Below are positions 1-64,000 of a DNA stretch of 64,000 bases, piece by piece (position 1 is the first letter of the stretch; each line of letters begins with the position of its first letter). The stretch covers positions 1-64,000 of the forward strand of contig JADFUC010001841.1 of NCBI GenBank assembly GCA_019722365.1, read 5' to 3'. Origin of the DNA: Lithospermum erythrorhizon (taxonomy: Eukaryota; Streptophyta; Magnoliopsida; Boraginales; Boraginaceae). A program made the translations under genes and the position numbers. The notes under the pieces are model-generated. The model was not told the origin of the DNA. It saw only the letters and a program-made list of their open reading frames with translations, and searched no databases.

Positions 1-1987
1 ATCATTGCTTCGTTCAGTTACATATTGCTTAATTACAATTTATTTAAATTATGATCTTTGGCTCCTAGATTGGTCGTTGTCGATGGAAATAATTGAGTTT
101 TGTTAATTTAACAATTTATTTTGAAATTATATAATTAATTAAAGATTCGATTTTTATGTTAGATATGTTTAGATTTAAGATGTTTATGATTATAGATATA
201 ATAATAGTGTTTTTCGAAATATATTCATGAGCAAATAGTTATTTTTTGGGTTTTATTCTAATTTTATAATATAATTTCGGATTTTAATCTGAGAATAAGA
301 AATAAATTTGTTTATGTTTATGAACTAATAAAGTTTTGTTTTATAAATCTTGGTAGATGATTATAGATATGATTTGTTAAAAAAAACCTATTTTGGGTAT
401 TATAGACAACTATTTTCTAATTTTGTATAATTATTTATCAAAACCGAAATTAAAAACAGAAATAAATTATAGTTTTAACTTTAAAATAAACTCAATTTTA
501 TAGTATTTATTCACTTTAGTTTCAACCAACATATAATAATCTTGGAATTTTTGAAATTTTACTATTTTTGTTTATTTATTAACTATAATGGAGATTTTTA
601 ATAAAAGGTCAAGTTTTTATGATTGTAATTTAGGGCGAATTTTTATATTTTTATATGCGGTATGGTTGGTTATAAATAAAATATTTAGAATTTTTGGAGT
701 TAAGTTTGATATTTATTTTGAATTATTGATAAGTAAATAACTAGTTTTGGGAGTTAGTGGAATAAATCATATTTTATACATACAAATATTTAACTGATTT
801 TATTAAGTGTATAGTACATTTTGGGCGTATGATAAAAATATTAGAATTTCGGACCTATTATGATATTTACTTGATTTTATAAAGTATTGAAGATTCCGCT
901 TTTAAATAGTTAACTAGGATAGTTCACAGAATAATTACTAACATACATTTAAAAAGTAAAGGAACACTAAGTTTTGATTAAGTAGATCGCAATATAATTG
1001 AAGTATGACTCTACAAGAAGTATTGATGAAAAATATGTCTATTACATATTAGTTAGGAGTTGAACTTTGGACCCGGAGGAAGTTGTTTTTGACTAGTTGT
1101 GTTAGTAACTTTTGAGCTAGTGGTACTTAGCACAAGTGGGGATTTATCTCCTTTTGTTATTGTTGGTTTCTGCCATTTGCATGTTACTGGATTGTAGATG
1201 CACATATGTGTTCTTCCTTTATTTGTGGTAGCCAACATGCTAGTAGTTATTATTTGTTAAATTATTTGGTAGATGACATCGTGTTAGGGACTAATATATC
1301 GTGATGATACTAGTGATGACTCTAAAATGTTTTTGAATTATAATATGTAAGACCGTGTAACATGGTATGTGATTTATTATTGTTGAGGCGTCTTTGTGGT
1401 TAATTGTGACATGTGAAGCGTAGCTTTGAGCTTTTGGTGGAGTCATGTGGTCTCATGTAGTGGGTCTTGAATGGTGTGATAGGGTTGAGAATTAGAGTCG
1501 TAGCAGGGGAGCGATGCGATCCATTATGACGATTGGGAGTAATGCGCATGGGCGATGGATACTTTATGTTATGGATGATTGGGATATTTTATATGTGTGA
1601 CCTATGGAATTAGGTTATAGCATTTGTGGGCATATGTGACCTTTTGGGTTGTTATAGCATATGTCCGACCATTGCGTTTGTATGTGGGCATTGTTGTGGT
1701 ACATGTTGGGATATTCGAATGTGTTTTTGAAGTACATTATTACTTGTGTTGATTTTGTGGACCTTCGAGGTAGGGCTTGTGTAATATGAAAGGATAGCTT
1801 AGAGATTTTTACTTTTGCCATATTGATGGCTCATTGGACTTACATGTTACATTCAAATCACAGCGTTTTACTATATTTTTGAGTATACGTTGCACAGGAT
1901 ATTTAATATAAATAAAGATGATCTAATACTTGAGTAGGGTAAGTTGTGAAAATGTTTAGTGTTTTTACTTATTGACCAAAGCTGCTA

Positions 1988-17495: not shown

Positions 17496-17499
17496 AGTT

Positions 17500-19150: not shown

Positions 19151-19151
19151 T

Positions 19152-33100: not shown

Positions 33101-33934
33101 GTTGATTTTGGCTGTAATCTTGTTCAATTGTTTGACATTATTTGCAGATTCTATGCAGCTGAGGTGTTGGTGGCATTGGAGTACTTGCACATGTTAGGAA
33201 TAATTTATAGGGACCTTAAACCAGAAAATGTGTTAGTTAGATCCGATGGCCACATTATGCTCACAGATTTTGATCTATCACTATGCTCAGACTCGATCGT
33301 AGCTGTTGAATCATCCGATTTTTCTCATGATTTATCATTTTCATCATCAAACCAGAGCCGTACCAGAAGCTCATATCCTCCAACCTCATTCTCCTGCATC
33401 TCCGCCCGCCTCTTCCGGTCCAAGAAAGTCCAGACACTCTCAAATAACCGGCTCTTCGTGGCTGAGCCGGTCTCTGCCAGGTCATGCTCATTCGTCGGGA
33501 CCCATGAGTACGTGGCACCTGAGGTGGCATCCGGCAGCTCCCACGGAAATGCAGTAGATTGGTGGGCCCTTGGTATATTTATCTACGAGATGATTTATGG
33601 ACGCACCCCGTTTGCTGGTCCATCAAATGAAGTTACCTTGGGCAACATAATAAAAAAGCCTCTAGCATTTCCTACTCATTCACCAATAAACTCTACTGAA
33701 GCAAATGCCAGGGATTTGATATCCGGGCTGTTGAACAAGGACCCAACCCGGAGATTCGGGTGGAAGCGTGGGGCCGCGGATGTGAAGACCCACCCGTTTT
33801 TTAAAGGGTTGAATTTCGCGCTTATTCGGACAGTAACACCGCCAGGGGTTCCAGTAATCAGGAGGCAGAAAACAACACCGTTGCTGCAGTTTAAGAAAAG
33901 GCAACCGAAGCATACGGACTACGGAGTCATTTGA
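30136..33934 (+). CDS. PID: PINOID-like AGC VIII serine/threonine protein kinase, two exons
   Basis: Exons 30,136-30,713 and 33,148-33,934 (AG/GTAAGT donor, TTTGCAG acceptor) join in frame as ..TSA-R-FYAAEV.. to give 454 residues. The N-terminal tail is serine-rich, with CTSFGRLSFELP and LKPHRSSD, features of PINOID rather than WAG kinases. Kinase motifs: glycine loop GSGDIGRV (93-100), lysine in AMKV (K119), C-helix E138, YRDLKPEN (213-220), and DFD (233-235) in place of DFG, the AGC VIII hallmark. A serine-rich insertion (about 241-303) precedes the activation loop SCSFVGTHEYVAPE (305-318). Family members phosphorylate PIN auxin-efflux carriers at the plasma membrane to control their polarity and organ formation. 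The C-terminus (..KHTDYGVI) has no FxxF motif. The ATG at 30,136 is chosen because upstream in-frame codons lack another ATG. All catalytic residues are intact. The WAG alternative is unlikely because of the intron and N-terminus. Confidence 0.9.
31321..31633. mobile_element. MITE-like element 1 in the kinase intron
   Basis: The left end TTAGGCTAAAATTCATATAAGC is mirrored at the right end, whose reverse complement reads TTAGGCTAAATTTCATATATGC, giving a terminal inverted repeat of about 22-30 bp with few mismatches. Inner parts are also partly self-complementary (TTTTGACACCTGAACT and the reverse of AAGTTCAAGTATCAAAAG). Length is about 313 bp with no coding capacity. The superfamily and target-site duplication are not established. 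Confidence 0.7.
31859..32303. mobile_element. MITE-like element 2 in the kinase intron
   Basis: The left end (31,859-31,905) reads TTTCATACAGGCACATGGATG, then AAGGAAAATATTTTTTTAAA. The right end (32,255-32,303), when reverse complemented, reads TTTCATTTTATAGATGCATT, then AAAGAAAAATATTTTAAATA. This is an imperfect inverted repeat of about 48 bp. The element is about 445 bp with no coding frame, and its ends resemble those of element 1, suggesting a related family. Confidence 0.65.
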
Positions 33935-42053: not shown

Positions 42054-43808
42054 ATGTTTTTTGCTTGGTGTGCTTTGTGTGGTTGTATTACTGCAGGTTT
42101 GAGTTGTAAGTGTGTTGTTGGCCTTGAGTCGTTCTCTGGTTTTGAGTCCATTTCTTTTACGAATCCGTTGGCGTGAGGGGGCGCCTTAGAAGATTTCGTT
42201 GACTCGCGTACGAGGGTCTTACGAGACTACTTTGAATTTTGTGTTCTTGTGGTGTTAATTGATTGAGATGTGTTATACTATGAGATGTGTGAACTGATTA
42301 TGTTAATATGATGTACGTTGAGCTATATGTATATATTGAGATGCGTAACTGGGTATAATATGGAGATCAGCACGATGGGTTGTTATATATATATGATGGG
42401 TTATATTGAAACAAGACATGTTATGGTTTAGAATATGATGTATGATATCGGAAATATTATGAGATATTTGGGGTGAAGTATATATTTTGGGAAGTGTATG
42501 CTTAATAGTAAGATGGGTGATAGAGTGATAATGAGACTTTTTATAGCGGGAGGTTATTAAGGATGAGTTGCGATAGGTAATATACGATATACTCGAGTGG
42601 AGTTATAAAGAATATCGATAGGTTTATAAGTAAGGATACCGGTTAAATAAGATGTGTGATTATGAAAATGTGAAGCGTAGGTTTGATCGAGAAATGGTAA
42701 AACAAGTCGGGGTGGATAATCGAAATTTGAATAAGAAAAAAGAGTTTAGAGTTCATCCAGTTAATAATGTTTAAATAAAATTCGATTGGTTGAGTGGAGT
42801 TTATCTTTGTGATAGTAATGATTATTCTTAGGATGTAAACTGCAGGTGAAGCACTGGAATGAAGATGTAGATGAATATGTTTGAGAATCTACGGGAGAAT
42901 AATTTATGTAGGAAGTTATTAAAGGGATTCCACTAGTGGAATTTGAAGTTGTTGATAAGTTGGTGCAATTGGGTGAACTTAAGGGTATTAAAAGGTTAGT
43001 TGAGGAGGATTTTGGTGACATGTACTTATGGGATTAGCATTTGACCGTGGTGTAAGATGTTGATCTTTAAAATAATTAAGAATTGGTCTTGTATACTTGG
43101 AGTAATTGGGGATAAGTAATACTGCGTTGTCTGTTGTGGAATATGGACGTGAGAGGATAGGGAAGGAGTAAGTCAGCGTTGTAATAAGATGAAAATGGAA
43201 GCTTAATCGTGTGGTGATAAAGATTGTGATTTGGGTTGAGGTGAATATTTGGGTGATGAGTTGATAATGCACATTTAGTACTACGGAAAGAAGATACATC
43301 TTTGCTAAATAATGAGTTAAGTAGTGAATAAATGGACTTATAATGGTGGAGAATTAAACAAAGCGGACTTATGAGTTATAAACGCATGGAGCTTAGTAAT
43401 TGATAATGTTGATTGTGATTGAAGGAGTTGAATAGAAGTTTGGCCCATAGGTTCGGTGGGGTATTATATAGGAGGGCTGGCGAATAGGCCGATAAGACTA
43501 AATTAGGGTGTGAAGTGTTCACCCCTTAGTGCATGTTGAATAAAGCCATAAGATTTCGTGGTATAAAAGTCATAAGGGCATAAACTCAGCGAGTTAATGT
43601 TAATTTGTGGATTCGAGGTGAAATTGTTAACAACGTGTGATAGTGAAGTGGGTGTTGGGGTTGTGAGTCTTAGTAGTGAGGGGATTAGCGTGTTTGAGGT
43701 GATATATAAAGTATGATGCTAGATAATAAGAAGTATTTGAAGGGGAGAGTTGTGGCGACAAAGAGTTTTTGAGTAAATTTTGAGGACGAAATTTTTATGG
43801 TGGGTAGA
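42054..43808 (+). mobile_element. Non-coding internal region between primer-binding site and LTR (LARD-like)
   Basis: About 1.75 kb lies between a primer-binding site and a polypurine tract/LTR start, yet no gag, protease, RT or integrase motif is readable on either strand. The last bases (TTTTGAGGACGAAATTTTTATGGTGGGTAG, 43,773-43,802) are the usual end of a Gypsy coding region plus polypurine tract. The middle is rich in GAGATGTG/TATATG words. It fits a non-autonomous deletion derivative. Confidence 0.6.
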
Positions 43809-45060
43809 TTGTAATAGCAGATTCGTACTAATGTGCTTGTAAGAGTGTACTAGATTGCTCGGTGGTTATTTTGAGGAGAAATCAAAATTTCGAGATTGAA
43901 TAATTGTCAGCCAGCGAATCGTCGGTTGGTAGTACGTTTGGTATTTAGAATTTTAAAGTTGTAATGGATGGAAGCTAAGTATTAGTTAGGTGGTAATATA
44001 ATTTGAGGATAGGAATGTTGATGTTGGAAGTTAGTTGTCGAGATAAGTTAAGCAGTATCGATTGACTTAAAGCGATCGGGTTCGCCCGTATAAAACTAAT
44101 GGAGCCCGACCAGCAACCCATGTAACCAACCCCGAGGGGCCCGAAAAGACAAAGGATGGAAACCTTGCTACTGCGTGATACCTTGATGAGCTCCCACGCT
44201 GATTTTTAATAGCGATTTCTCTTCCGTCTCATGACTTTGGACTGGAGATTTCTTGGAGAGTTTACCATGGCCGTTATAACTTTGATTCGAGTAAAAGGTC
44301 GGATCTTTTTTGTGAGTATTTAGAGTGAGTTCTTATGAGTTGACTTTTGTTGAGCATGGTCCCAATGCTACAATGGATTAGCAGGTTAAATTAGATTGTG
44401 CTTGAGTTGAAAATTCGTGTTTGATGTGGAATTTCGGATGTTTTAGAGACCATTGACTTTTTAGATTTTAGGTTGAGCTTGTTTTTATGAGATGTGTGAA
44501 TATAATTATTATCTAGGCTTAGATTATAGTATAGGAGATAATGATAATCGATATTTGGGAGTAGAAAATGTTATTATAGTTTGAGTTGACTTTGTGAGAG
44601 TTGATTTTGGGTTGACTTTTCTAAAATGTTGTTGAGAGGTATAAATATGTTATTGGACGCTTTATTGTGATTGTTTTGAGGTGGAAATTATGATTTATAA
44701 GTTGTTGGAGGAATATATGTTGAAATTAAAACATTAGATTTTGAGTAATGCTTGAGAACTTTTTGGGATTTGAGGTTGTTAGAAATGGGTTTGATTACTT
44801 GGAAAAGTTGATATTTTGGGTTGATTGAAATTGGTAGAAAATGTTAGTATTTTGGTTAAGGTGTTGACTGATTATGGGATTTACTGGGATAGTTGAAGTC
44901 GTCATTTTAATAGTCTTTGAAACATAAGTAGCAATCTATATTGAGTTGTTAATTTGTAACTAAAATGGGTTGAAAAATCGGGGAATTTAATTAAGATAAG
45001 GGGTTAAAATTGTTATGAGTAGTAATTGTATTCCAGGGTGTTTTGATTAGACGTGTGTGA
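43809..45060 (+). repeat. LTR family beta, 5' part (plus; left arm)
   Basis: Begins TGTAATAGCAGATTCGTACT right after a polypurine tract. It includes the GTTGACTTTT zone (44,340-44,640) and CTAGGCTTAGATTATAG (44,513). Its inverted counterpart is 62,640-63,856. It breaks off near 45,060, where inverted LTR sequence begins. Confidence 0.75.
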
Positions 45061-45550
45061 GGGAAAGGCAGATGGAACGCTTGAACTGGGCACCGTCTGC
45101 GAAATTGTAACTTGGCCGTAGCCAGCACGAGGTTAAGATCGTTAACAGCCTTGTCACCCAGCAAAGTCGGCGTCGATGGATCTGATAACAAAATATGACA
45201 CAAGCGACATCGTGAGAAACAAACTACTACTCTTCCGTGGTGGTGTTCTGACAGCCGCGTCAACCAAAATAATGAGCAACCAGAATCTGAAATCGCGAAT
45301 AATACGACGATGATATACTAGAAATCCAAAATACAATATAGGAAAAGTATGACTACCGGACGAAATCGATATAATACCCACTTAGCGCGGTCTACAGAAA
45401 TATACAAAAGCGACAACAAAGAAATGGTGATGAGGACTTCACATGCAGCGCGCTCGCCTATGATATCAGCGCGGCTATTGAAAGCAGGATCTCGGCCACC
45501 TCGGCGATCTCGATTTAGCAAGGTGGATGGAGTTTATCGGCCGATTATGA
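45060..45550 (-). repeat. LTR beta 3' end with primer-binding-site remnant (minus; left arm)
   Basis: The minus strand matches 62,150-62,610, which is an LTR tail with a primer-binding site. Shared words are CTAGTATATCATYGK (reverse of 45,310-45,325), GGATTTCTAGTATATC, and the AACCTCG tail. The 62.58-kb copy gives the boundary; here the site is badly decayed (about 45,075-45,110). Confidence 0.65.
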
Positions 45551-45589
45551 TGTTTTCCGTTGAGTATAAATCACGGGAATGCGAATGTG

Positions 45590-46290
45590 GTGGGCGTCGT
45601 TAGTCGTGAGGGAAGATTAAGGAGCCATTAATGAAATGAAGCAACTTGGTGTTAATTTTGTAATTAAGTCGATGGCGGTTTGTAAGCGCGAATAAGGACC
45701 GGCCAGGTTGTTTTTTGATCAAATACTTGAGGGGCAAACAAAAAGATGAAAATTACTTGAAAAATAATTTGGAGAGTGAAAGCGGAAGCGGTCGGACTTT
45801 GTGGTGAGAGATGAGTGGAGCCACTACAGTACATGGTAGATTATTCGTCTGTATTCTCGGGGAGTTAAAGGAGATTTTGGACCGAAGCTCGTAATGCTAC
45901 ATATAGTATGCATCCGGGTGTACAAAGATGTGTATAGAGACTTAAAAGAAGCGATGTATTGGTGGCCCCAGTGACATGAAGAAATTCTTTGAATTGTATC
46001 AAAATGTCGACTTGTCGGCGGTGAAAATGAGAACAGAGCGTCAGCGGGGCTATTGCGACCCACTTACGTGCAGGTGGACTTGGGAGCATATTACGATGGA
46101 CTTTGTTTTTGGACTCGAAGGGCGTTGATAAAGAATAATGATGACATTTGGGTGATAGTGGATAGGCCAATCATTTCATTCTTTACAGTCATCGACTAGA
46201 GTCTGGCTTGATTAGCGAGGTTGTATGTGAATCAAATTGTGCGATTACATGGAGTGCCGGTATCGACTCCGTCAGCGCCGTTGATTACAA
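45590..46290 (+). pseudogene. Gypsy RNase H end / integrase fragment (plus; left arm)
   Basis: The plus strand holds the H2C2-type integrase N-terminal region and start of the core: HPG.TKMYRDLKEAMYWWPQ at about 45,912-45,965, then SAGLLRPTYVQVDLG at about 46,040-46,085, FVFGLEG-like and NDDIWVIVD near 46,138-46,165. The second half of the core is missing. Homologous to 8640-9300 in the first chromovirus. Contains stops and shifts. Its inverted counterpart is at 61,420-62,150. Confidence 0.75.
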
Positions 46291-49200
46291 TCGACTCTGA
46301 TTTAACAAATGTAGTTTAATTTCATACATGAAATATAATCAGCGTCGGTATATGTGTGTGGCCCACAGGCTCGAATAATAGTAAGTTGTATAATAATAAT
46401 AATAATTGACCAATTACTATTATAGCGATTAATGAATAAGATCTAGCAATCGCTCATAACCCGCCCAAATTATCCTTGAAACCCGAACTAGTAATACCAC
46501 AATTACTAAAGGTGAACACTAAGTTCGATAATCACATTTAATAACTTGATAAATGAATTGATCTATGATTGTCGCCAGCCGGGCATAATAAAAAGGGGAA
46601 TCGATTCGTTGATTTCGAAGCATGTTTGCCGCGGGCCGGTGCATCTGATTCCTTTATCAGCGATCTGCAGTCGTAGGCTAACCATAAGAAGTGTGTCATG
46701 AAAGCGCTACAACTTTCTTTACTCGGTAGGAAGCGAATCGTTTATGGCGCCCGTAAACGTCGATTACCCAGTATCACAAGAAGGCACGAGGTCTTTCGCT
46801 TATCAAAGGACGGATAATCCACCTCCCGATATATCAACATCTATCGTTATACTCCTTTGTGTGATGACATAATAAAATTTATAATCCCCGGCTTAAGGCG
46901 GAGCGTTTGGTCGTAGTCAAAATCTGAGCTCGTATAACGAGATAGTTATATATAAGTAGGTCTAAGAATTGTCGAACCTAAAATTCTAAACAAATATCAT
47001 GAGACACGAATATACATACTTCTATGAATTCGTTTCGGTCATTACCCGACTCCACTAGTCACCGGACCGGCGGCCCACGGTATTGATCTAGTGCGAGGCT
47101 AGCATTGATCGATATTGATGTTAATCAAAATATAATGCTTGTCGCGCTTAACTATCGACATCGACCCGAGGCATTTGGGTATCTATGTTTGAGGCAGAGG
47201 TGTAATCAACAATTCATATTTCCCTACATAAAGCATAGACCTAGGATTTAACTTTTCACTCGCATCGAGGATCTGATACATGTATATTATATATTTCGGC
47301 GGCATGTGAAATAAATAATGGGTAACTATATGAATGAATAGCATTCATGTAGTTTAGTTAACAATCGAGATTAAAAATATAAAGGAACTTTTTGTTTAAT
47401 TGATTATAACTTATTCGAGAGAAAGTAGGAATGAACTAGCTCATTTGAACTTTGCATGTTCGGTTAAGCCCGTTAAGCTCCTGAAAGCAAACTTGGTTGG
47501 GTGCTTGAGGAAGATCTTAACTTTCAAGATGCGTATAAATCCATACATGGATCCTTTAAAACCTGCCGCGACTTCTTAGATCGTTTCTGTGATATGTAAA
47601 GCAAGAGGATAGTGATTGCAATCCGTCGCTGCAATACTGAGCGGTCTTTACATTACGTCGGCCCGGTCTACCGACCAAGGGAATCGTTGATGACTAAGAT
47701 TATCTGACGTAGTCATCTTGCGACTATATGATCAAATGGGTTTCAACCATTTCTCGGGGTTCCACGTCGGGTAGGTTCTTGACTCGAAGTGTGTTAAAAG
47801 CAACGTCATCTTTATTAAATACATATTGTTTTATGACATTACCAACAAAGCAGTTAGTAGTCAAGGATTGTATCTTGAGTTCAAGTTTCACTTTTAGTTT
47901 ACTCGCTGAGCATACTAGACTCGGTCAGCCCATGAAATTCTTGGCTAATAGCTTTTTCATATGGTACAAATGTCCGTAATGCTACTATCGCGTTAGATTC
48001 TAGTGAAGATCCTTGGCCGATCCATTCCGTCTTAACTATATTTACCTACGATACCTGCTTAAAGTTACTACAGCGTATTCGAGAATCGGCGTGAATACCT
48101 TTAGTAAAACTTCACTGATTCAATCACGGGGGTCGTACTCTACGTCATGGTTGTAGTGTGACACATGACCTTGACCTGGCATCTGTTGAATCGTAGTACT
48201 ATGTAATAGACTTGACACAGCTCCACCGTTAATGCATGAGGTCGCACTAGTGGGATTAGACCTCACAATGAAGAGTTGCCTTGTTAATAAGAGAATACGT
48301 CTGTTGCCAAGAGATTTAATCTATTATAGATTTCAATCACATATATAATGTGGTGATCATAACATGTGTCGCATATGTAGTTGGGCTCCGCAATGTACAG
48401 AATCTAATTCTTTCTTATACCACTTTAAGGTTGTAGGAAGATTTCTTCAACATTTAGTGTGCTTAAAACTTTATTTATCTTGATTCACGCTCAGCCCCAA
48501 CCTTTAAAGGCTCGAGGTTAGCGTAGAAAAACTCTTGATTCTTATTGATTTTCATCAGTATCAAAGTGAAGAATTTAACTCCGTTATACTCGATCTTAAG
48601 TTTACAACTTTAGATTCTAGTAGTATAAAACTTTCTTTTTACATTCTCGGCTTTGAGATGTTGAGTTCCAATAACAATGAAGTATCCGTAAATTCGTGAT
48701 CATTACTTAGGAACATTCTTTGGATAAGCTTTGCTTGAACCACATGTTACAACTTAGCTGGAATAGCAATAAGAAAGTTTGAAATAAGCATGGCCTTGAC
48801 AGTGACCCGATGAATATGTTTAATATTCGGTTTACCGACCCGAATGTATGATTAATGACCGTTAAGCTGACGATTGCTCATTGTAAGGAGCTCATTTATT
48901 ACTTGATGATTCGCCATCGAGAAAGTAATATAATGTAGACCACCTACTCACGATGAATCGCTGAAATCCAGGAAAGATAAAATAGGCTTTATCTTTCAGC
49001 TAAATATTCGAGATCTTATTTCACTTAAATGACCTCGAAGTCGTTTATTAAGTATTATTTATTCATATTTGTCATTTGTATCATTGCGTTTAGCTTTAAA
49101 TGCATCAAGAGTGGATACTCTTGATATAGCAGAAGGGTTAATCTGCAGTTTGGTATCACATGGAGCGGCTTGAATGCGTTAGTCACGTTTATTTCCACTA

Positions 49201-50759
49201 TTTGTGCCATAATGAAGACTCATGTACAATAAATTGAAACGCATAGTGGATGGAAATAAAAATCTGGAACCGTACGGTTATGTACAAAATATTGAATATC
49301 AACTTTAATCACGAGTTAAATTATGTATCTACGGTGGCGTAATACTAAGCACCCCTCTTTTATACGAGACATTTCAAAGTTTGTTTATCAGCGCGCTTCT
49401 TGTTGTCTCGCGATTGAATATGAATAAATTAATTTAAAGGTAAGGTGTGACAATATGTGAAGTATTTACTTCTTTGTTATTGACCACGTTAAGCGATCAT
49501 ACTTGTATCGCTCAATTAATGACACATCTAAGGTTACAATGAAACTATCTTGGTATGTAGGTGAAAGATGCCGTCGTTTGTGTTTAACTTCATTAAACAC
49601 AATTCCTGATGCGATATCTTAGCAATGCGTTTTAAGATTAGAATGATGTACCATTCTTCGGATGATATCTTCTTTATATCGATGATACTTAGACTAAGAG
49701 CTTGATAGTATTCATATGGTCCTTTCCGTACCCTTATCAGCTACGATGTATCGTTCGATAACTCGAAATCTTATTTGATTAAGCTTTGTATGTAAACATA
49801 CGGACTTAATTTAGACTAGGGAACCTCCAGCTAAGTCTAGTAAGAGTCGACTTAGTTCATCTTTTTCAAGATTATATTCCAAAGTCTTACATTCTCTTGT
49901 TAACTTGTATGTAAACATACAAACATAATTTAGACTAGTGAGCATCATAGAATACAGTAAGGGATTGTTTAGTTAAATGCTTTTTAAGATTATACTAGTC
50001 TCGTTAGTCATTATCCGTAGAAGTAGTATTCAATCGTTTGTTGTTCGAGAACTGTTTTAAAAGAAAGAGTAGAGTAATGTTTAAGCTTGTCGGAATCACG
50101 TGTAGGCGTGTAAATCAAAACATGACATTCCACTTTTTTACTGCTACGAGTCTGAAAGAAAATAGTTTTAGAATCGACCTCTTGCATTGGAGGATTTAAG
50201 CGTGTGCTCTTATAATGTAGTCGCCTCATTCTGCAGAGGTACCGATAACTTTCTTTGTATCTTGTCTTCCGACTATTCTTATACTTGGCTCATATTCATG
50301 ATTAAATCATGTGAGTCAAAACTAGTGTTCTAGAGCGATAGCCAGCTTGAGCATTCTGGCTTGTGACAAAATTATTTGAGATGAGATTTAATCAAATCTC
50401 TCTTTCCAGTCTAAATATTCTTAAAATCGTACTACATGCTTTAAAGTTCGGAAATATTAAGTGAATCGTTAAGCTTATTTATAGTTAAGTATTCTACCAG
50501 AAACATCTGAAGTCTTTGTGAGAGCAGAATAGATAACTTCTTATTTGTTCTGTGCCGTAAGCTTTTGTTTTCACTTCAGCGATTCGTGAGCAATGTTAAA
50601 TCGTGTTAAAAGCTAAATATAAGAAATCGCGTAATCTTGAAATGTAGATACCTGACGTTTCAAGATCATTCAATAGTTTTCTCAATCGAGTTATAAAAAG
50701 AGATGTTATTTATCATTTAAGACTTGTTTGGTGGCTAAGAGACAATATGATATTATGCT
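46290..50759 (-). mobile_element. Decayed Copia-like DNA (left arm)
   Basis: No long frame survives. The reverse complement of about 47,460-47,600 resembles the Copia RT segment that usually reads VCKL..SIYGLKQAS (a TATGGATTT..GCATCT stretch), more readable in the other arm at 60,120-60,180. Near 49,789 and 49,911 a unit of about 122 bp containing GTATGTAAACATAC and TTTAGACTAG is tandemly duplicated; the right arm has the matching pair. The strand is inferred from the RT-like segment. The remainder is unassigned. Confidence 0.4.
49785..50030. repeat. Tandem duplication, period about 122 bp (left arm)
   Basis: TTGTATGTAAACATACGGAC at about 49,786 recurs as TTGTATGTAAACATACAAAC at about 49,906. 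Each is followed by TAATTTAGACTAG, then CTTTTT(C/A)AAGATTATA. The mirrored pair in the right arm is at about 57,725-57,950. Confidence 0.8.
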
Positions 50760-53700
50760 GACCATGAGATTAAATTTTCACGAGGAGTTAGGACAGTAAA
50801 TGGCCTGAATAATCGAGTCGCATGCGGCGATGGATATGATAGAAAAATGACTTCATTTAACATGATAAATAAAACTATCTGAAACACAATAAAATTGAAG
50901 CCAATATTCTGACAAGCTGAAAAGCAGCAATGCTCATCTGACATCCGAACAACGGGTTTACAAGAACAACGATTATGTACAACAAAAACTCTAAAAAGAG
51001 ATAAAAGTATATTTGTTGAGGTCTTGGCCATCGCCATAGCGGGTACCACGGTACTCGGCAAAAGCATCTCGGGCATCCATGACAACCCCTAGGCATAAGC
51101 GCCCGCCCGTGAGAATCTGAGATCGGCTATGAAGGCAGTGAATACAAATATCACGAGTAATCCACCGCGCGCCACACAAGGATAACTCGAGTTCTGCATT
51201 ACCTATCCCCAACAACTATACGCCTGAAGTATTATATATTTTCTATGCTACTACCGACATGATAATCTTTTAATGCCTTTCCAATTGCTTAACTGAATAA
51301 AACCCTTTCGCGTCAAACGGCTTGCACTTTTCCTTGATGCGACTTAATCATAGGAAATATCTAATATACAACTCAACAGCTTATTTCGGCAACTCAATGT
51401 TCATAACTTGGGATACCCTTGTCTGATCTCGCGCTGAAAACCTCGCCTTCCGTTAACTATGCGTAGTTACTTAAAGTGTTACTCGAATCATAGTCATAGC
51501 GCTTTATTTGTTATCGGAATATTTATAATAGGAATCTCGGCGTTGTTTCATTATCTTATCTGACTAAAAGCGACATATGTCTTAAATCGAGATAACTTTA
51601 AGCATCGAATTATCTCCCGGAATTCTACCGTTTAGTATATTGAGCACATTACTTTAATGGTATCAGCGTCGTGATTGGATCATAACTATACCCAGCGCAT
51701 TTGAATCTAATTTTCCACCGTATATAAAATATATCATCGGTATGCGTCTATAGATGAGCATAAACTTCGGTTTATAATGTTAACGTACCTCTTGTTCTCA
51801 TTCGAAATGTTATCTCGGCAATTTCGGCTTTTAACCTTGAAGAATGTACAACGATGAATACCTGACCTAGGATCCGCAAGGAAATGCGATAATATGAACC
51901 ATAATCGGCCCAATCTTAATTCGACATCGATTCGTAGCGACCTCTAACGTAATCAATGCTGATATCCATGCTTGATAAATGAGTCATAAAACATATAAAT
52001 GAATCATAAAACATATCCACCTGACACGAAAAGTCTAAGCGACATATAATACTGACCAAAATGGCTTCAATAGCAGCGACCCGGCCAGCGTGACTACCCA
52101 GTATGCAACTTGACCACATTTCCAGCGGCTGCTTGACTCCATCCAGCTGATCAATAGTATCAACTCGACAACTTTCAGCAATGGTCGTTCGACTTCGGCA
52201 ATAGTATCCAGGCTGTGACTCAGCCAAGGTGTATTTCAGCTGACCTACCGACTCGATATAAGTGGGTTTACGCAGGCCCAATGCGGCGTATAATCGGCCT
52301 GACTGCGGAGAGGAAACTTATGTCGTCGACGCAAGCTATCACCCGAATAAATAGCAGTGCGAAGCAATCGCGAATGGTTACTAAGTGCGAGGGCACAGCT
52401 CACCCCGAATCGTACTAGGAGCGAAGCAAGATACCGAGACGAAATCAACTTTCAATGACGACATCAGCTCGGCCGACAACGTCGGCTAGCCTCTGACTCT
52501 TCCTGTCATTTCAGCGCCACCTTAAAAACATCTATCATTTCGTAGAGACCACTACCTTGAGCAATGCTTGAGGAAATAACAACTTTCATCCAAAATACCA
52601 AAAATCATACGTTACGAGGAGGCAAATACAACTGAGCAAGCCTTTTGATGACTATATATATAACGACACGTACGCATCATTAAATTTATAGTGGAATAAC
52701 GGTGAACATATCCTGAACAGCAGCAAGTACAACAACATATACTTATATATCGATAAGTAAAACTTCACGTGAGATTAGTACTACTTGGTAGCTAAATAAA
52801 ACTGCTTGTCCTTGGCCAGACGTTTACCCATGATCGCCTAAAAACATTCAAAATTATAATTACTACTTATAAACGCAGCTAATAATATAACATTAAACTA
52901 TATATAATCTCGTACCGATACCCAAAGGAAATAACCCAGCAAAGTTTCCTCTGACCTTATTCGAGAGTTAAGTTCGCAGCACTTTCTATTAATGATCGAG
53001 TTCTAATTACTAGTTTCAATAACACAACTGTTCGATATTAACAACTAATAATCACGTTTCTAATAAATGCTTTAATCACCGAATCGATTCATTTATCGAC
53101 TTCTGAGCTTCGTAATATCCGAACATTCTGTCGCTGAAATGCATAGCTTACGCTCAGAAACAATCTAAATAAAGTCAAGAATGCAGCACATCATTTAAAC
53201 ACCGTTTAAAACTGCAAAGTCAACAAAAGTCAACTATATTCTTGACATTTTTTCGACCCGTGTCGATAATTATTTGTTATCACGATAATCTAAGCTTATA
53301 TAGCGATTATAACGTAATAAACATCAGCTCAAAGTCGGCTTCAATTATTAAAAAGTCAACATCCTACAACTTTCGAAATACTCCAAAAGATTTGAACTTT
53401 AGCACCTCAGCGTAGAGAATGTAGAGGAGAATCTCTCGAGAAAATTTGAGGACAGCGCTCGCCCGAATGAGGAAGAAAATTGAAAAAAAATTTGAGGGTG
53501 ATCTTCTAAGAATTTCGGCCATCCTAGAAGAAAAAGGAAAGAAGATGATAATGATGATGATGAAAGAGGTTAAGGATAAGTATAAAAGTCGCGGGGTCAG
53601 CATAATAAAATATCTCGAAGACTTCTTTCGACTTTGTCGTTCGGTTTTAAGTTTAGTTTACCGTCTCGGTTTAACAACATCGCTTCAGCATAGAATTTTA

Positions 53701-53887
53701 ACCCAACCCAAATAATATCATCGCGTTCATTCGCTTTAAAATCTTAAATACCGAAATGTACTACCAACCGACCGATTAAGTTGTATGTCCGACTATTCAA
53801 CCCGAAATTTGATTTCTCCTGAAATATTCAACGAGCAACTAGTATCTTGTTCGTAATATTAGTATGGAGCGAGTTATTCTGGATATA
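50760..53887 (-). repeat. LTR family alpha, copy 4 (minus; left arm, at palindrome centre)
   Basis: Minus-oriented and the longest alpha copy. Landmarks on the plus strand: AGGCATAAGCGCCCGCCCG (51,089), GATAATCTAAGCTTATAT (53,284), AATGAGGAAGAAAATTG (53,465), and ACCGAAATGTACTACC (53,749). The 5' end near 53,887 is head-to-head with copy 5. CG-rich interruptions (52,060-52,450) replace the (TCAAC)n-like zone of other copies. Confidence 0.75.
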
Positions 53888-53889
53888 TT

Positions 53890-56800
53890 GAATTAGCCGT
53901 AAGCATTCATCACCTTTGATTGAATCAAAATTAATTATCCGCTTGTCATATCGTGTGACTTTGTTCACTTGAACCAAAGTTATCTGACGAATCGACGATT
54001 GAATCAAGTCTTAAATGTTTGTGAGTATTTAAAGTTTAAAGTTGTAATCGAATGGTGATGATATTATTTGGGGAGTTAGGGTTAAAATTTATGTTAGAGT
54101 TATGTTAATTAAACGAAGGCAGCTAAGCCAAGCAGAGCGACAAGCGAGCAGAATCTTGAGATATTTTATGCGAGATACCGTGAAACTTTATCTTATCATA
54201 CTTATCTTTAAATACGTCGTCGTTGTCTTAACCACTTTTCTTGGGATGGCGAGAAATTCCTTGGGTCGCCTCAAATTTTTTTCAATTTTCTTTTCCCTCG
54301 TTTGGCGAGGCTTTTTGGTCTGTTTTGGAGAGATTAGCAAGACATTCTCTGCGGCTTTGAGGTAAGAAGTTCAAATCTTTTGGAGTATTTGCTTGAGTTA
54401 GAGGATGTTGACTTTTTGACAATTTGAGTTGACTTTGAGCTTTGATGTTTATTATGTTATAGGAGTACCATATAAGCAGATTGTCGTATAACGATTGATA
54501 ATTATCGTGCCGGGGTTGAAAATGTTGAGGATTATAGTTGACTTTTGTTGACTTTTGTAGACTTTTTCTAAATGATGTTTAAATGATAGAAGTGTACTCT
54601 TGGACTTTATTTAGGATTGTTTTGAGGGTGTAAGTTTTGAGGTGATTAAGAGAATGTTAGGATATTACGAGTTTTTGTAAAGTTGGATAGTGAATTGATT
54701 TAAAAGTGATTAGAAATGTGATTATTAGTTGTATCTCGGAATGTTAGGGTTATTGAAACTGAAGTAATTAAATTTCGATCGTGTAGGAAAGGTTGCGGAG
54801 CAACTTGGAATAAGGTTGTAGAGAGGCTTTGTTAGATTGACTGAGGGGTATCGGTATGATTGCTATATATAAATTAAGAATGTTATATTATTAGTTGTGT
54901 TATAAGTAATGATATAATTTTGAATGTTTTAGGCGGTACGTCAATGAATTAAATGTCATTGTTATTGATTCTTGTGATTTTATTTAAATAGCGAGGTGAG
55001 TCTTGTCTCGCGTGAGTTTTTACTTATCGCATATATAAGGGTATATGTTGTTGTACTTGTTGGTTGTCTTGAGGATATGTTCAACTGTTATTCCACTATA
55101 CCCGGTTGATGCGTGGGTGTGTTGATTATATATATGATTGATTGTGTGCTGGCAGGGTTGTATTTGCCTCACGTAATGTATGATTTTTTGGTATTTTGGA
55201 TGAAAGTTGTTATTTCTGTGTTGGTTTGTGTAGGTGGTCTCGTGAGTCGTATAGATGTTTTGTGAGTCTTTGGTCATATTAGGAAAGAGTTGTATATGAG
55301 TTGTTGTCGATTGAGTTGATATTTTGTTGGGATTGATTTGTCGATATCTTCTTAGTTCCTAGCTCTTGAGTGCGATTCGATGATTGCTTAGATACACTAA
55401 GATTACGATTAGGTGATAGGCATGGCGACGGACATAAAGTTTCTGCGGGTTGAGGTTGATTATATGCGCGTGGTTGTAGAAATCCGGACTTATATTGAGT
55501 TGTAGGGTTGTTGAGTTGGCAGCTCTTGTTGAGTTGTTGAGTTGATACTATTGTTGAGTTGACACTGTGTTGATTGTTGAGTTGATACTATTGATTAGTT
55601 GATGGAGTCGTTGAGTTGTTAGTCGATTGAGTGGAGTTGGTTATATAGTTGGAGTAGTCATGTTGTCGAGTCGTTGTGTTGAGTCTGACCCCAGTTGTGA
55701 TATATGTTGTTGGAGCTTTTTGGTGTTGTGATATGTTTTATGATTCATTTATATGTTTTTTATGACTTCGTTCTTGTTTATGGATGTGCATTGATTCGAT
55801 TAGAGGTTAGCGATGGTCGAATTAAGATTGGGGTTGATTATGGTTCATATTATCGATTTCCTTGTGGATCCCCAGGTTGGTGACCGTCGTTGTACATTCT
55901 TCGAGGTTAAAAGTTGATTGGTTGAATAACACGAAAGGCCGATAGATGCAAAGAACATTATAAACCCGAGGATTTATGCTCGTCACATAGATGATGTTGA
56001 TATTTTATATGGTGGAAAATTAGATTCAAGTGTGTTGGTCTATAAGTTATGATCGATCACGGCGTTGATACCGTGCAAAATTGAATAAGTTCAATATACT
56101 AAATGAGGAATTTGGGGGAGATAATTCGGTGCTTAGGTTATCTTGATTTAAGACATATGTTGCTTAGTTAGCAGTAAGATAATGAAACGTGAGAGTTCCT
56201 ATTATAAATATTCCGATAACGTATAGGTATGTGACTATGATTTGGGTAACAACTTTTAAGGTGAACTCACAGAATAGTTAATTGAGTTGTGTAGGTTTGG
56301 TGTGAGATTGGCAATGGCATAGTGGGTATCCCACCCCAAGTTATGAACATTGAGTTATCTTGAGTTGTTGTGTGTTAGAGTTGTATATTAGATATTTAGG
56401 TAATTAAGTCGTCTTCTTGATGAAGTGGTTGCTGTGATGTGGGTTTATCGGTGTTAGTTGAGAGGGCATTAAGAAAAGATTTATCCTGTTGAGAGTAGCA
56501 TACAAAATATAACACTTGTGGTGTATAGTTGTCAGATAGGTAATGGACTTAAGCTTCCTTGTGTGTATGTGTGGTGGATGCCCGTGATATTTGTATTCAC
56601 TCGAACATGGCGACTCCGTATTCCGATGGGGCGGGCGTTTATGCCTAATTTGTTCTTGGGATGCCGAGATGCTTTGCGGTAGGCGTATGCCCGTGAAGGT
56701 GGCGATGGTGGCTTGAACCTCAGCGATCATACTTTATCTTCTTTAGAGTTTTGTTGTACATAATGGTTGTTCTTGTAAAACCCGTTGTTTGATGTTGTAT

Positions 56801-56985
56801 TTATATTGTTCTTTTCGATTGTTGTAGTGTTAGCTGAATTCGCCCGATGGACAAGTTAATATAGTTTTATTATCATGTTAAATGAAGTCATTTTTATTGT
56901 ATCATCGTTGGTGACTACGATTATTGAGTTGATGGCGGTCCCAACCTCGAGAGCCCGCTTTGGGGCGGGAGTCGTTGATATAAAT
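53890..56985 (+). repeat. LTR family alpha, copy 5 (plus; right arm, at palindrome centre)
   Basis: Plus-oriented mirror of copy 4. Landmarks: GAGGATGTTGACTTTTTGAC (54,402), TTGACTTTTGTTGACTTTTG (54,538), CTTGTGGATCCCCAGGTTGG (55,860), and GGGCGGGCGTTTATGCCT (56,628). The tail ends near GGGGCGGGAGTCGTTGATA (about 56,970-56,987). A GTTGAGTTG-rich low-complexity zone spans 55,490-55,690. An 87-codon frame at 54,102-54,365 lies in LTR sequence and is not regarded as a gene. Confidence 0.78.
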
Positions 56986-59900
56986 ATTGTCTACTTAGCC
57001 AGCAAACAAGTCTTAAATGATAAATAGTTTGATCTCTTTTATAACTTCGATTCAGAGAAAAACTATTGAATGATCTTGTAGATGTTGTGTATACACATTT
57101 CGGGACATGTGATGGAGTATTTAGTTCTTTTAACGTGATGAGCATGGTTGTGAATTGTGAAACAAAAGCTTATGGTATGTAACCAATAAGCAAAGTTACA
57201 TACATTAGGTTCATGACACTTATGCGGTTGAGAGAAGCATTGGAGCCCCTTTAAGTTGAAGTTAATGATTAAGCCGTTATTTCGAACTTTAAAGCATAGA
57301 AGAAAGGATTTTTAAGTAACGTTTAGGAATTGAAGAGATTTGATTAAAATCTCGTATCTCGAAATAATTTTGTTGTGAAAATTTTGTAATGTCTTGGTAG
57401 GCTATCGATGTCGAACACTAGTTTTGACTCGCGTAGTTTGTCATGAATATGAGCCAAGTAACAATAGGCGGAAGCAGATACAAAAGTTATCGAGCTCTTG
57501 TGTAATGAGAAGCGACTACGTTATAAGAGCACAGGTTTTAAATCCTCCGTGAAGATGGTTGGGATTCTAACTATTTTCTTTGCACTTGTAAGAGTAAAGG
57601 GAATGTCATGTTTGAGCTGGCGTTTCATGCTCGGTGATTACGATTAAGAAAGCGTGCTACTGCTAACTTAACTTTTAAAGGCGCTGACAGCAAGCGATTG
57701 AATCACTACTTTATGGATAATGACTGAAACGAGACTTGAGTATAATCTTAAAAAGATGAGAACTAAAAGTCGACTCTTTTACTAGACTTGAGTGGGAGGT
57801 TCAACTTAGTCTAAATTATGTTTGTATGTTTACATAAGGATTAGAATTAAAGAGAACAAGACTTGAATATAATCTTGAAAAGATGAACTAAGTGGAAGCT
57901 TCTTTACTAGACTTAGTGGGAGGTTGAGTCTAAATTAAGTGCATGTTTGCATCTGAGTTAATTGAAGATTTGAGTTATTGAATGATACGTCGAGTTGATA
58001 AGGGTATGGAAAAGGACCATATGAATACTATCAAGTTCTTAGTCAGTATCGTGATATAAGTAGTATAAATCCAGAAAGAATGAGGCGTCATTAAATTCTT
58101 AAGCGTCACTTGTTAAGATGCGTAATTGAGGTGTGTTTAATGAAGTTAAAACACAAATGGATAGAGATATCTTTCAATTTCATATACCAAGGTAGTTTCA
58201 TTGTAACAGATGTGTCATTAATTGAGTGATACAAGTAAGGATTGTGTTGCGTGGGTGAGACACAAGAATGAAATAATTTCACATATTAAGATTCTTACGC
58301 CTACCTTTAAATTAATTTATTCATATTATTTATTGAGACAACTCCAAAGAGTTGTGTTTGATAAACAAACTTTGGAAATATGCAAATTATAGGATAAGTT
58401 AGTATTATGTCCTTTGTAGTAGACATAATTTAACTTCAATTCAAAGTTGATATTCGGTCGTTTTGTACATAGGAGAAGGAGGCGGTATTTATTTCCGTCA
58501 ACATAGTGTTGCAATTTATTGTACATATAGAGTCTTAATTTATGAGTACAAAATAGTGGAAATAAATGTGACTTGAAAATTGCATTCAAGTGGCTCGTAG
58601 GAGATACGAGCCGATTATTAGAACCACCGGTTATATCCAAGGAGTATCAGCTCTTGATGCGTTTAAAAAGCTAAATGCGATTGATACAAATGACAACATG
58701 AATAAATAATGCTCTAATAAATGACTTGAGGTCATTTAAGTGAAATAAAAGATACGAATAGATGAGTTGAGTATAAAGCTACATTTATCTTACGGATGGT
58801 GATTCATCGAGAGTAAGGGCCCATACTATATTACTTTACGGATGGTGAATGCGTGAGTAATAAATAATATTCTCTCGTTAAATGGCTTGTCAGTCATGAA
58901 TAGCTAATCATACATTTAGTTGGCTCAATATTAAACATATTAAATTTATTGGTTATGCATGCTCGTACTTATTTCAAACTTTCTTATTCTTTATTCCACA
59001 AGTTGTAACATGTGGGTCTAAGCAAGTTATCAAAGAATGTTCCTAATGGCGTGATGATGGATACTTGACATTGTTATTGGAACTTCAGCATCTGGCGAAA
59101 TGTAAAAAGAAAGTTTCTATACTCTTAGAATCTAAAGTTGCCAAACTTAAGATTGAGTATAATGGAGATTAAATTCTTCACTTTGATGCTTGATGAAAAT
59201 CAATAAGAATCAAAAGAGTGATGAAGAACATGAGTTCCTTAAAGGTTAGTGGGGCGTAAGCTTGCATAAATAAAGTTTTATACACTAAATGTTGAAGAAA
59301 TCTTCCTGCAAACTTAAAAGGGTATAGTAGCAATTTAGATTCTTGTACATTTGTGAGCCCAACTACATATATGTGACACATGTTATGATGAATCATTATA
59401 TATGTGATTGAAATCTATAATAGATTAAATTCATAAATAGGCAATTCTCTTATTAAACGAAATGACTCTTAGATTTTAAGGGGAATTAATCCAGCTGGTA
59501 AGGACCTCGCGTTGTGAGTGGTCGAGAATCTGTTCGCCAATACTATGATTCGCGTATGCGTGTCGGTGTGTTGTGTACCACAACTATGGCGTAGCATGAT
59601 TCCGTGGTGGAATTGTGAAGTTTTACTAAAGGTATTCGGATTACGAGATACGCTTGGTAGTAACTTTAGAATAGAGGTAAATATAGTTACATGGAATGGA
59701 TCGGGTTGTTGATCTTCAGCATGGCCCGAGATGTGATAGTAGCATTGGACATTTGTACCATATGAAAGCTATTAGCCAAAATTTCCATAATAGGGTAATT
59801 AAAGTATGCTCGATGAGTAAACTAAAAACTTGAACTCGGTATTAAACGACGGTCAATGTTTTTGTTGGTAATGTTGTTAAAAGCGATATGCATTTAATAA

Positions 59901-61420
59901 GGCAGATGTGTTTTAACACACTTGATTTGTGTTGTAAACCTACCCGATGGAACCCGAGAAGCCCATTTTGATCATAGTCGTGCGTGACTATGTAGGGATA
60001 ATCTAGTCATCAATGATTCGCGAGATTTGAGAGGCAGGGCCGATGAATGAAGCTGGCACATGAAAGTGGTATTCGTGGATGTGATTGTAATCAACATCCT
60101 GCTTGCTTTTACATATCATGAAATGATCTAAGAAGTCGTGCAAAGCTTAAAAGGATCGTGTATGGATTTAAGCATGCATCTGAATTATCCTTCCCACATT
60201 GATTCAGCAGTTTGGTTTTCGGAGCTTAATGAAGGAACCCGAACATGGCAAAGTTCGGTGGGGCCCCAGTTCATTCACTACGGAATAAGTTAAGTAATCA
60301 ATTAAAACAAAGATTCCTTTTATGTTTTTAATGGAGTTGTTAACTAAACTTCGTGAATGCGTGATTCGTTCATATGAATTACCCGTTATTTATTTAAGCG
60401 TGCCGTTGAAATATATAATACATGTATTGTATCTCGATGAGTGAAAAGTTAAATCCCCAGGTTAGTCTGTGTTTTATGGGAGGGAACATGAATTGTTGAT
60501 TGCAATATTGACTTTAGAAACATAGGATAGTAAAATGCCTTGGTCGGAATCTTTGATAGTTAAGAGCGACAAGCATTATATTTTTGATTAGTGATCGATA
60601 TTGATCACGTTAACTGCTGAGAACTAGATCAATACCGTAGGTGCCAGATGCAGTGACTAGGGAGGCTGGCATGACGAAAGCAGAATTCATAGAATGTGGC
60701 ATATACGTGATGCATGATATTTGTTTAGTAGGTGCGGCTTGATTCTTGAACTGATATATAACTATACGTATTTATATGAGCTGCATGCTTTGACTATGAC
60801 CAAATGCACTTAAGCGGGGGATTATAACGGCATATGTTGGGTCACACGGTGGTATATAACGATGAATATTCAGAAAATATATTAGGGGGATTTATCCGTC
60901 ACCGATATACAAGGGAATGCGGGCCTCTTAGATAGTTGGTGATTGGTTTATGGGCGCCATAAATCTTTGATTCGATTCACTGCTCGGAAAAAGTTGTGGG
61001 TGTTTCATGACACACTTAGCATGGTTAGCCTACGACTAGAGATCGCGTGATAAAGGAATTGTATGGTAATGGAGTCAGGGCAAGTGGGGTGTTGAAATCC
61101 AATGAGAATTGATTCACTTTTTATTATGCCGTTGCGACGGTGTGTATCGATTCATTTACGGGTTGGTTAAATGTGATTACTTTGGAACTTAATTGTTCAC
61201 CTTAGTAATTGTATTACTAGTTTGGGTTCATGATAATTTAAGGGGTTATGAGCGATTCTTCTTAGATCTTATTGTTAATCGTTATAATAATAGTAATTGA
61301 GTCGATTATTATTATTATCTGACTTCTTATTATACATTTTAGAAAGGTATGCTTGTCATTGGCGTTGGATTATATTTCATGTATGAAATTAAACTACATT
61401 GCTAAATTGAGAGTTGATTG
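56986..61420 (+). mobile_element. Decayed Copia-like DNA (right arm)
   Basis: Inverted counterpart of 46,290-50,759. At about 60,130-60,180 the plus strand reads KLKRIVYGFKHASEL, resembling the Copia RT motif KLxKxIYGLKQASR. At 60,480-60,560 a weak GREH..LLIAI..LET stretch resembles the RNase H region (GREHWIAVKNIL..). No frame stays open. The 64-codon frame at 59,518-59,712 has no recognised domain. The remainder is unassigned. Confidence 0.4.
57725..57950. repeat. Tandem duplication, period about 122 bp (right arm)
   Basis: TACTAGACTT(GA)AGTGGGAGGTT followed by TCTAAATTA occurs at about 57,780 and 57,906, preceded by CTTGA(G/A)TATAATCTT(A/G)AAAAGATGA in both. This is the mirror of the pair at 49,785-50,030, so the duplication predates the inverted duplication. 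Confidence 0.8.
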
Positions 61421-62150
61421 TAATCAACGAAGGTGGATGGAGTTGATGCAGCTGGTAGCAATCGCATATTGATCCGCTGACACTGCTTATTTGCTCGGAC
61501 AGAGTAGTGGGTTGGTGGTAGAAATGGTGATTTCGACGATTAAATCACTATCGCCCCGAATGTCGTCATTCTTTATCAACGTCCTCGGGAGTCAAAACAA
61601 AAGGTCCATCGTAATGTGCTCCCGAGTCGCTCCAGGAATAGGAAGGGGTTGCGATAGCTTGGCCCCGGATAGCCGATGTTCTATTTTCACTGTTGACAAG
61701 TCAGACATTTTGATACAAATTCGGCCAATTTCCCTCTTCGTGTTGGGCCGCGTACATTGCTCTTGAAGTCTACATACATCTTTGTACCGCTTTGGGATGC
61801 ATACTATAGGCGTTATGAGCCGTCCAAAATCTCCTTTTTAACTCGAGAATAAGGCACGAATAATCTACCATGCGTTGTAAGGGCACCAGTAAATACCGCA
61901 CTTGAAGTCCGAATCTGGCACCATTTTTCAACTACTCGATTATTTTTACTTAATTTCGTCTTTTTGTTGTCCTCAGTATTTGATCCAAAAACAACCGGTC
62001 GAACTCTTATTTGCTTCTGAGCCGCCATCGACTCCCGAGCACAAAATTAACACCCGAGTTCTTCGTTTGTTAATGGCTCTTGTCTTCCCGCTTCTGACTC
62101 GTCACATCCCGGCCGCGTTCGCATTCGAGGATGATACTCAATGAAACATC
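61420..62150 (-). pseudogene. Gypsy RNase H end / integrase fragment (minus; right arm)
   Basis: Mirror of 45,590-46,290. The reverse complement gives MYVDFKSNVRGPTRRENWPN-like, then YQNV..LVNSEN and YDGPFVLTPEDVDKE pieces, corresponding to YRDLK..YWWP and ITMDFVFGLPRTLKKN of an integrase. Frameshifts are at different places from the left arm, so the two arms decayed (or were mis-sequenced) separately. Confidence 0.65.
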
Positions 62151-62584
62151 ATAATCGATAAACTCCATCCACGCACTAAATTGAGAATCGTTGAGGTAGG
62201 CGAGGATCTGTTTTCTTGGCTAACGTGGATATCATAGGTGAGAAGCGGTGAGTAAGCGTAAAGTCTCGCTCCAGTCATTTCACTTTTGTTGTCGTTTTGT
62301 ATATTTCTAGGCGGTGTGGTATTATATTGGCCAGATGCAGTAGTCATACTTTTCTTTATATTGTATTTTGGATTTCTAGTATATCATTGGGTTGTATTAT
62401 TCGGGTGTGATACGTTGTCTATTATTTTTTGTTGGATGTGTTGGAGCGATGGAAAGAGAGAGTTTTGTTTTGATGATGTCGGTAGTCATGTTGTTATTGT
62501 ATCCGTCGATTGGTGGCTAAATTGTCTGAGTTGTTAATGATCTTAACCTCGGGGTGGCGGAGACTTAGCGTGGAGTCGTTACAC
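62150..62584 (+). repeat. LTR beta 3' end (plus; right arm)
   Basis: LTR tail with ATTTTGGATTTCTAGTATATC (62,362) and TTAACCTCGGGG (62,542), ending GTCGTTACACA directly before a primer-binding site. Mirrors 45,060-45,550. Confidence 0.7.
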
Positions 62585-62586
62585 AA

Positions 62587-62609
62587 TTTTGGTAGCGAGC
62601 CTAGGTTCA
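62587..62609 (+). other. Primer-binding site (decayed)
   Basis: TTTGGTAGCGAGCCTAGGTTC resembles TTTGGTATCAGAGCCTAGGTTC with a short deletion. It follows the LTR end by two bases. A few tens of bases later the sequence switches to inverted LTR beta. Confidence 0.7.
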
Positions 62610-62639
62610 AGGTCGATCAAGTGCACTTTCCCGTCGCGT

Positions 62640-63856
62640 GTCTAATCAAACACCGGAAATACAATTACTACTCATAACAATTTTAACCACTTATCTTAAT
62701 TAAATTCGACTTTTGACCATTTTTTAGTTACAAATTAACAACTTATTATAGATTGCTAATTATGTTTCAAAGACTATTAAAATAGCTAATTTAGTATCGA
62801 GTAAATCCATGTCGGTCAGCGCATAACAAAAATACTAACATTTTTCGACGATTTGATCAACCCAAAATATCCAACTTTTCTAACTAATCAAACCCGTTTC
62901 TATGACCTCAAATCAGAAGCCGTTCTTACTCAAAATCTAATAAGCTAATTTGACATATATTCCTCCGACAACATAAATCATAATTTCCACCTCAGAAACA
63001 ATCACGATAAAAGGTCGATAACATATTTATACTCTGACAACATTTTTGAAAAAAGTCTTGAAATCCTTTCGAAAGTCAACTCAACTATAACAACATTTTT
63101 CTACCCCGAATATCGATTATTGTAAATCTCACATACTAATCTAAGCCTAGATAATAATTATATTCAATAATATCTCATAAAAACCGAAGTGACCCAAAAT
63201 TCCAAAAAGTCATTAGCCCAAAACATCCGAGAATTCCATCCAAACACGAAATTTCAACTCAAGAATAACTAATTTAGAACCCCGAGAATCCGTTGTAGCG
63301 ATAAAAATCGAAAATTACAAAAGTCAACAAAAGTCGGCCATGAAACTCGCGAAATACTTTCGAAAGATCCGACCTTTTTTGAATCGAAGAATGATGAGGC
63401 TTCAAGAAATTTGAGGTCCAAAGCTTGCGAGATGGAAGAGAAATCGAAGAAAGAAATCAAAGGGGAGAACACATCGGCGTGTATCACGTGAGTAAGAAGA
63501 AGCCGATCCTTGTCTTTTGGGCCTTGGGTTGGTTATGGGTTAATGGGTTGGCCCATTAGCTTTATATGGTGAAACCCGATCGTTTTAAGTCGTCGATGTA
63601 CCAGTTTTAACTTATACGACCTTCAACTTCAGCATCCAACGTTCACATCCTCCCGAGGTATATTTACCGCCCCAACTAATATCATTTCCGTCCGATTCAC
63701 AACTTTAAAATTTCTAAATCACAGAAATGCTATAAGCCAGATCGATTCGTTGTGTTTGACAATTATTCAACTTGAGAATTTGATTTCTCCTGGAAATAAT
63801 CACGACAACTAGTACACTCTTTACGGTAATATTGATGCGGAGCGGGTTATTCTGAT
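62640..63856 (-). repeat. LTR family beta, 5' part (minus; right arm)
   Basis: Mirror of 43,809-45,060. Landmarks on the plus strand: ATTACTACTCATAACAATTTTAACC (62,663; complement of 45,004-45,028), CTAATCTAAGCCTAGATAATAATTATATTC (63,139; complement of 44,508-44,532) and CAACTAGTACACTCTT (63,805). It ends at GGGTTATTCTGATACC, the complement of an LTR start. Confidence 0.78.
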
Positions 63857-64000
63857 ACCGCTATAAAATTTAGGTCCTCGAAATTTACTGAAACTACGCG
63901 CTTGTTACTTGTATTTCTCCCCTTGAATACTTATACATTATCACAGTATCATACTTTATATCACCTCAAATATTGCCAATCCCATAATACTACTGTTCAT
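63857..64000 (-). mobile_element. End of Gypsy-like internal region, continues past the window
   Basis: The reverse complement reads TTTCGAGGACCTAAATTTTA just before the LTR start, the usual 3' end of Gypsy internal DNA. It is the mirror of 43,740-43,808 and also matches 38,880-39,000 (TATCACCTCAAATATTGCC against TATGACCTCAATTATTGCC). Confidence 0.7.

Follow-up and report, generated by a model that had tools for sequence, protein, structure and literature searches.

According to the accessible parts of the Breakinator paper (PMC12870357), fold-back artefact reads of nanopore genomic DNA consist of two near-mirror halves with the fold near the midpoint, where extra sequence may sit; they make up 0.55-0.6% of nanopore genomic reads, and library preparation is argued as their cause. 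The locus analysed here resembles them in its layout, although those were single reads mapped to a reference, whereas ours is known from an assembled contig alone, with the read ends unseen. In nanopore reads over inverted duplications (PMC7229812), base calls are likewise poor and the inverted repeat is large, but in the part of that work available the arm after the junction was worse than the arm before, while here both arms are about equally noisy. The artificial inverted halves that whole-genome amplification leaves in long reads, for which Pacasus was described (PMC6218980), are also similar, unlike in that the accessible sections of PMC7261806 mention no amplification for the nanopore library of Lithospermum erythrorhizon. 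Among the matches listed in the literature on palindromes, chimeric reads or foldback, L. erythrorhizon was not named. As discussed below, the 20-kb fold-back of this species is most likely an assembly artefact and not a feature of the genome.

The window, by which we mean the whole stretch of DNA that was analysed (64,000 nucleotides), was compared with itself by blastn, and a left arm at 43,671-53,751 was found to mirror a right arm running from 63,992 to 54,025, with about 71% identity. The mirror is made of one inverted match of 8,814 columns (43,671-52,017 against 63,992-55,730; 71.1% identity, 1,018 gap bases) and another of 1,258 columns (52,573-53,751 against 55,216-54,025; 71.1%), and under lenient scoring 43,671-63,992 forms a single self-inverted match of 21,499 columns at 70.1%. 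The features of the window are as follows.

4..29, + strand: nanopore Y-adapter remnant at the window start, 24 of 27 columns identical
30136..33931, + strand: clean two-exon AGC-type kinase gene in the polished part of the window; relatives named PINOID
43671..53751, + strand: left arm, uncorrected nanopore-like sequence; its left limit is fixed only by the window end opposite
45521..46264, + strand: piece related to 8,567-9,293 (72.3%, blastn), mirrored in the right arm
49786..49994, + strand: short direct duplication of the left arm (49,786-49,876/49,905-49,994)
52018..52572, + strand: left half of the strictly non-aligning stretch (z 1.1)
53752..54024, no strand: centre, in which no mirror similarity was detected; an LTR-like 5' part in minus orientation occupies the left half and ends near 53,880
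54025..63992, - strand: right arm, mirroring the left one and reaching the window end
55217..55729, - strand: right half of the strictly non-aligning stretch, containing a short tandem array (55,508-55,603)
57728..57968, - strand: short direct duplication of the right arm (57,728-57,853/57,855-57,968)

The giant imperfect palindrome that the original prediction placed from 43,740 to the window end is thus present as letters, both in blastn and in the lenient self-match, and since the match reaches the window edge, which sets its right limit, its true extent may be longer. Between the arms there are 29 exact inverted matches of at least 20 bases and not one same-orientation 20-mer, which excludes a chance origin of the mirror. 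For the 15 longest exact matches, the centre shifts from 53,894.5 close to the fold to 53,831.5 at the outside, a range that brackets the centres of 53,854-53,872 given earlier, and in the first match the aligned right arm (8,263 bases) is only 1% shorter than the left (8,347 bases). In blastn, lenient scoring and exact matches alike the halves are collinear about one centre, and the same junctions recur in mirrored order in both arms, as had been claimed. Two stretches of the block gave no alignment under strict scoring, namely the central 53,752-54,024 and the pair 52,018-52,572 and 55,217-55,729, whose halves have similar lengths (555 and 513 bases). The short duplication foreseen for each arm was found, and the independent insertion of two similar elements, already considered inadequate as an explanation, is ruled out by some 10 kb of collinearity together with this duplication common to both arms.

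Concerning the content of the arms, the LTR-like and Ty3/Gypsy-like pieces were recognised by their DNA similarity to copies elsewhere in the window, under labels that we presume to be correct and that come partly from motifs. The window segment at 8,567-9,293, to which one of these pieces is related, sits within a Ty3/Gypsy-like stretch, just upstream of a frame whose motif at 9,386 we take to be integrase-like. Beyond base 42,300 there are 86 stop-to-stop frames of at least 55 aa; of the 30 frames submitted to Pfam, 24 came from this region, including 22 from within the palindrome, and no frame of the 24 reached the cut-off, a result that does not confirm the "Copia-like" label proposed earlier for part of the arms. 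The nearest match in the palindrome was a weak RVT_3 at 55,023-55,358, with 13.8 bits against a cut-off of 21.6. Elsewhere, frames for the retroviral-type aspartyl protease RVP_2 belonging to Ty3/Gypsy-like elements were found by Pfam at 6,722-7,033 and 17,528-17,806, and scanning all 64,000 nucleotides for Rfam families and tRNAs gave no matches.

Inverted copies that mutate in the genome acquire changes without a common direction along the contig; when both arms are called from single-stranded reads, errors follow the reading direction in both. Ordered along the + strand, the mismatches between the arms number 653 against 240 for C to T (p = 8e-45) and 320 against 50 for C to G (p = 3e-49), with 288 against 163 for C to A (p = 4e-9) and 242 against 188 for A to T (p = 0.01), and the C-to-T counts of the two arms are alike (317 and 336). 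Such directional mismatches along the contig indicate that the differences between the arms are not the product of old evolution. Control pairs of at least 500 columns were taken from the window, with the palindrome's own two matches excluded: three of five inverted pairs have the same lean (p < 0.01) and two are without direction; the six direct pairs should show no direction, and for C to T none does, with one pair at p = 0.02 for C/G. In addition, a palindrome is expected to hold C and G in equal number, and 43,671-64,000 holds 3,260 C against 4,300 G; in each of the ten mirrored 1-kb blocks the ln(C/G) bias lies between -0.22 and -0.38. C is scarce on the + strand of the whole window (1-64,000) as well (10,055 C against 13,352 G), unevenly, with C exceeding G at 12-14 kb; as a guess, cytosine methylation might be the cause of the C loss. 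The two blastn matches have transition/transversion ratios of 1.03 and 1.19, and the observed/expected ratio of CpG exceeds 1 in the block (1.16), against 0.76 at 30-38 kb. When 300-base tiles from 1-43.6 kb, which are not independent of each other, were compared with both arms as third copies, the arm in the same orientation matched better for 12 of the 17 mirrored pairs (p = 0.14) and was the one hit in 23 of the 33 cases with a hit to one arm only (p = 0.035), which weakly favours a read-error origin of the arm differences.

The arm-to-arm alignment, suggested earlier as a check, gave 71.1% identity and no gap longer than 11 bases. In the 8,909 aligned bases of the two main matches, a count that leaves out 52,018-52,572 and the centre because they do not align, 630 gaps of mean length 1.85 were found. 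A geometric law fits their lengths better than a power law, which expects 19.9 gaps above 11 bases. Other repeat pairs of the window contain six such gaps in 7,645 aligned bases, all in three of eight matches and all at 13-21 kb, a rate that predicts 7.0 for the arms, where none was seen. Long A/T runs are also few in the block (12 seen, 27.2 expected) and numerous at 30-38 kb, the region of the clean gene (37 against 17.8); seen and expected counts are 12 and 20.0 at 1-12 kb, 12 and 3.3 at 12-14 kb, 9 and 9.3 at 14-24 kb, 7 and 10.4 at 24-30 kb, and 6 and 9.7 at 38-43.7 kb. A simulation of two passes with 18% error each, under an error model of our own choice, gave 72.2% identity, 16.8% mismatch and 11.0% gaps, against 71.1%, 17.3% and 11.5% observed, with a weaker direction (347 against 203, compared with 565 against 209 observed).

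At the window start, the adapter match at 4-29 scored 21, the maximum being 17 in 5,000 shuffles of the first 60 bases and 19 in 60 shuffles of the whole window; the letters used for comparison are those that we take to belong to the nanopore Y-adapter. Because the remnant lies at the very start, the window start is probably that of a contig opening with an untrimmed read. As for the clean gene, its frame at 33,098-33,931 has an L. erythrorhizon protein as best match (99% over 94% of the query, among the best 120 of 4,717), and that protein, the kinase LIER_09900, matches the two window exons with 96.9% and 98.9% identity and no gap. According to the accessible parts of PMC7261806, the L. erythrorhizon genome was sequenced with R9 MinION reads called by Guppy 2.3.5 (about 20-fold, read N50 15 kb), from which reads under quality 7 were dropped, was assembled with DBG2OLC with chimera removal on, and was polished with Pilon using short reads only (Illumina genomic and RNA); Illumina genomic support is absent for 46% of the assembly and present for 89.6% of coding regions. 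In a word search of the main text of that paper, Sparc, consensus, adapter and Porechop did not occur. DBG2OLC is described as chaining reads by anchor contigs and laying uncompressed long reads consecutively before the consensus step (PMC5004134). We infer that the window derives from this published assembly, which agrees with the adapter remnant.

Given the directional differences, the C/G imbalance and the lack of any gap longer than 11 bases, an artefact fits the data, and we consider it probable that the block is unpolished Oxford Nanopore sequence in which a locus of about 10 kb was read once per strand in one fold-back read. A nested LTR-retrotransposon stretch of this length would have been read first on one strand and next, without splitting, on the opposite one, and the resulting read would have been laid into the contig, so that each arm would bear its own basecalling errors and the arms would not have evolved apart. 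We likewise infer that the fold stems from a single read and not from two. Of the two options left by the original prediction, the noisy fold-back sequencing artefact agrees with the strand direction, the C/G imbalance and the gap spectrum, and the old event is contradicted by the same results; the hairpin instability and siRNA production proposed as consequences lose their support, since the artefact fits.

Several observations count against a fold-back read. The arms are equally noisy, unlike the quality drop reported in the available part of PMC7229812, and the chimera removal of the assembler was on, as stated in PMC7261806. The simulated direction is weaker than the observed one, and two of the five other inverted pairs have no direction. 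At the centre, where an adapter was searched for, nothing stands out. The core itself was tested separately: its 273 bases have no mirror similarity by strict scoring (z -0.5), and eight of ten lenient comparisons stay at z 1.1 or below, with one at z 3.0 (4 of 300 shuffles as good); the remaining one, with z 14.1, is high only through overlap of its two test pieces. By DNA folding, 12 of 100 shuffles fold as well as the core does. A further point against a fold-back read is that, within 53,700-54,025, the fold lies at most about 15 bases from the LTR-like boundary near 53,880, which was placed by eye, a proximity that would be rare for a random fragment end and that a simple fold-back read leaves unexplained.

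This last point fits better with a misjoin, in which two raw opposite-strand reads of one locus would have been chained head to head at an inverted LTR-like anchor, leaving the non-mirroring core at the boundary. Copies of the LTR-like repeat occur in both orientations (38.3, 38.7, 43.85, 53.8 and 63.75 kb), the assembler chains reads by anchor contigs (PMC5004134), and equally noisy arms would be natural for two reads. However, both arms must then chance to lie in their own reading direction, and two long reads plus a false overlap are required in place of one faulty read. We therefore regard a misjoin as unlikely and as less likely than the fold-back read, both being artefacts. A real palindrome is quite unlikely in our opinion: a very young 20-kb one of nested retrotransposons, made by template switching, with a spacer of about 270 bases, the fold within about 15 bases of an LTR-like end and nearly identical arms, would show the same directional errors if seen through raw nanopore reads, which would mask the identity, and its spacer and fold position would suit template switching; nevertheless, the structure would be a rare one, and fold-back reads are common (PMC12870357). 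If true, small RNAs would have a natural long-hairpin source in such a palindrome. An old inverted duplication with arms diverged by mutation would account for the many substitutions and small gaps, but it is very improbable, as it fails on both the direction of the differences (mutation has no reading direction, yet p = 8e-45 and 3e-49) and the gap lengths, which lack a long tail (no gap above 11 bases where 7.0 are expected), and CpG is in excess (1.16), not depleted. Finally, a missed PacBio adapter was also considered, and the nanopore adapter and the substitution-rich differences speak against it.

Other repeats of the window deserve mention. A second inverted pair, 38,582-40,289 and 42,375-44,029, has its centre at about 41,305 and some 2.1 kb between its copies; its mismatches too are directional, with 103 against 41 for C to T (p = 2e-7), and no gap in it is longer than 11 bases. 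This pair may represent a further artefact or else the ends of two elements that face each other. At 13,000-21,250 there are three related copies in alternating orientation, which look truly separate because of gaps of up to 28 bases between them in the alignments. At 35,603-36,083 lies a tandem array of 4.5 copies, in which the unit is about 106 bases long.

To return to the fold-back read as the preferred explanation, this case shows how nanopore sequence left unpolished in the assembly of a plant genome can mimic an ancient palindrome. The mismatch-direction test on inverted copies needs no reads and could be used to screen assemblies for uncorrected blocks, and the retrotransposon ages, CpG decay and inverted repeats drawn from such blocks would be wrong.
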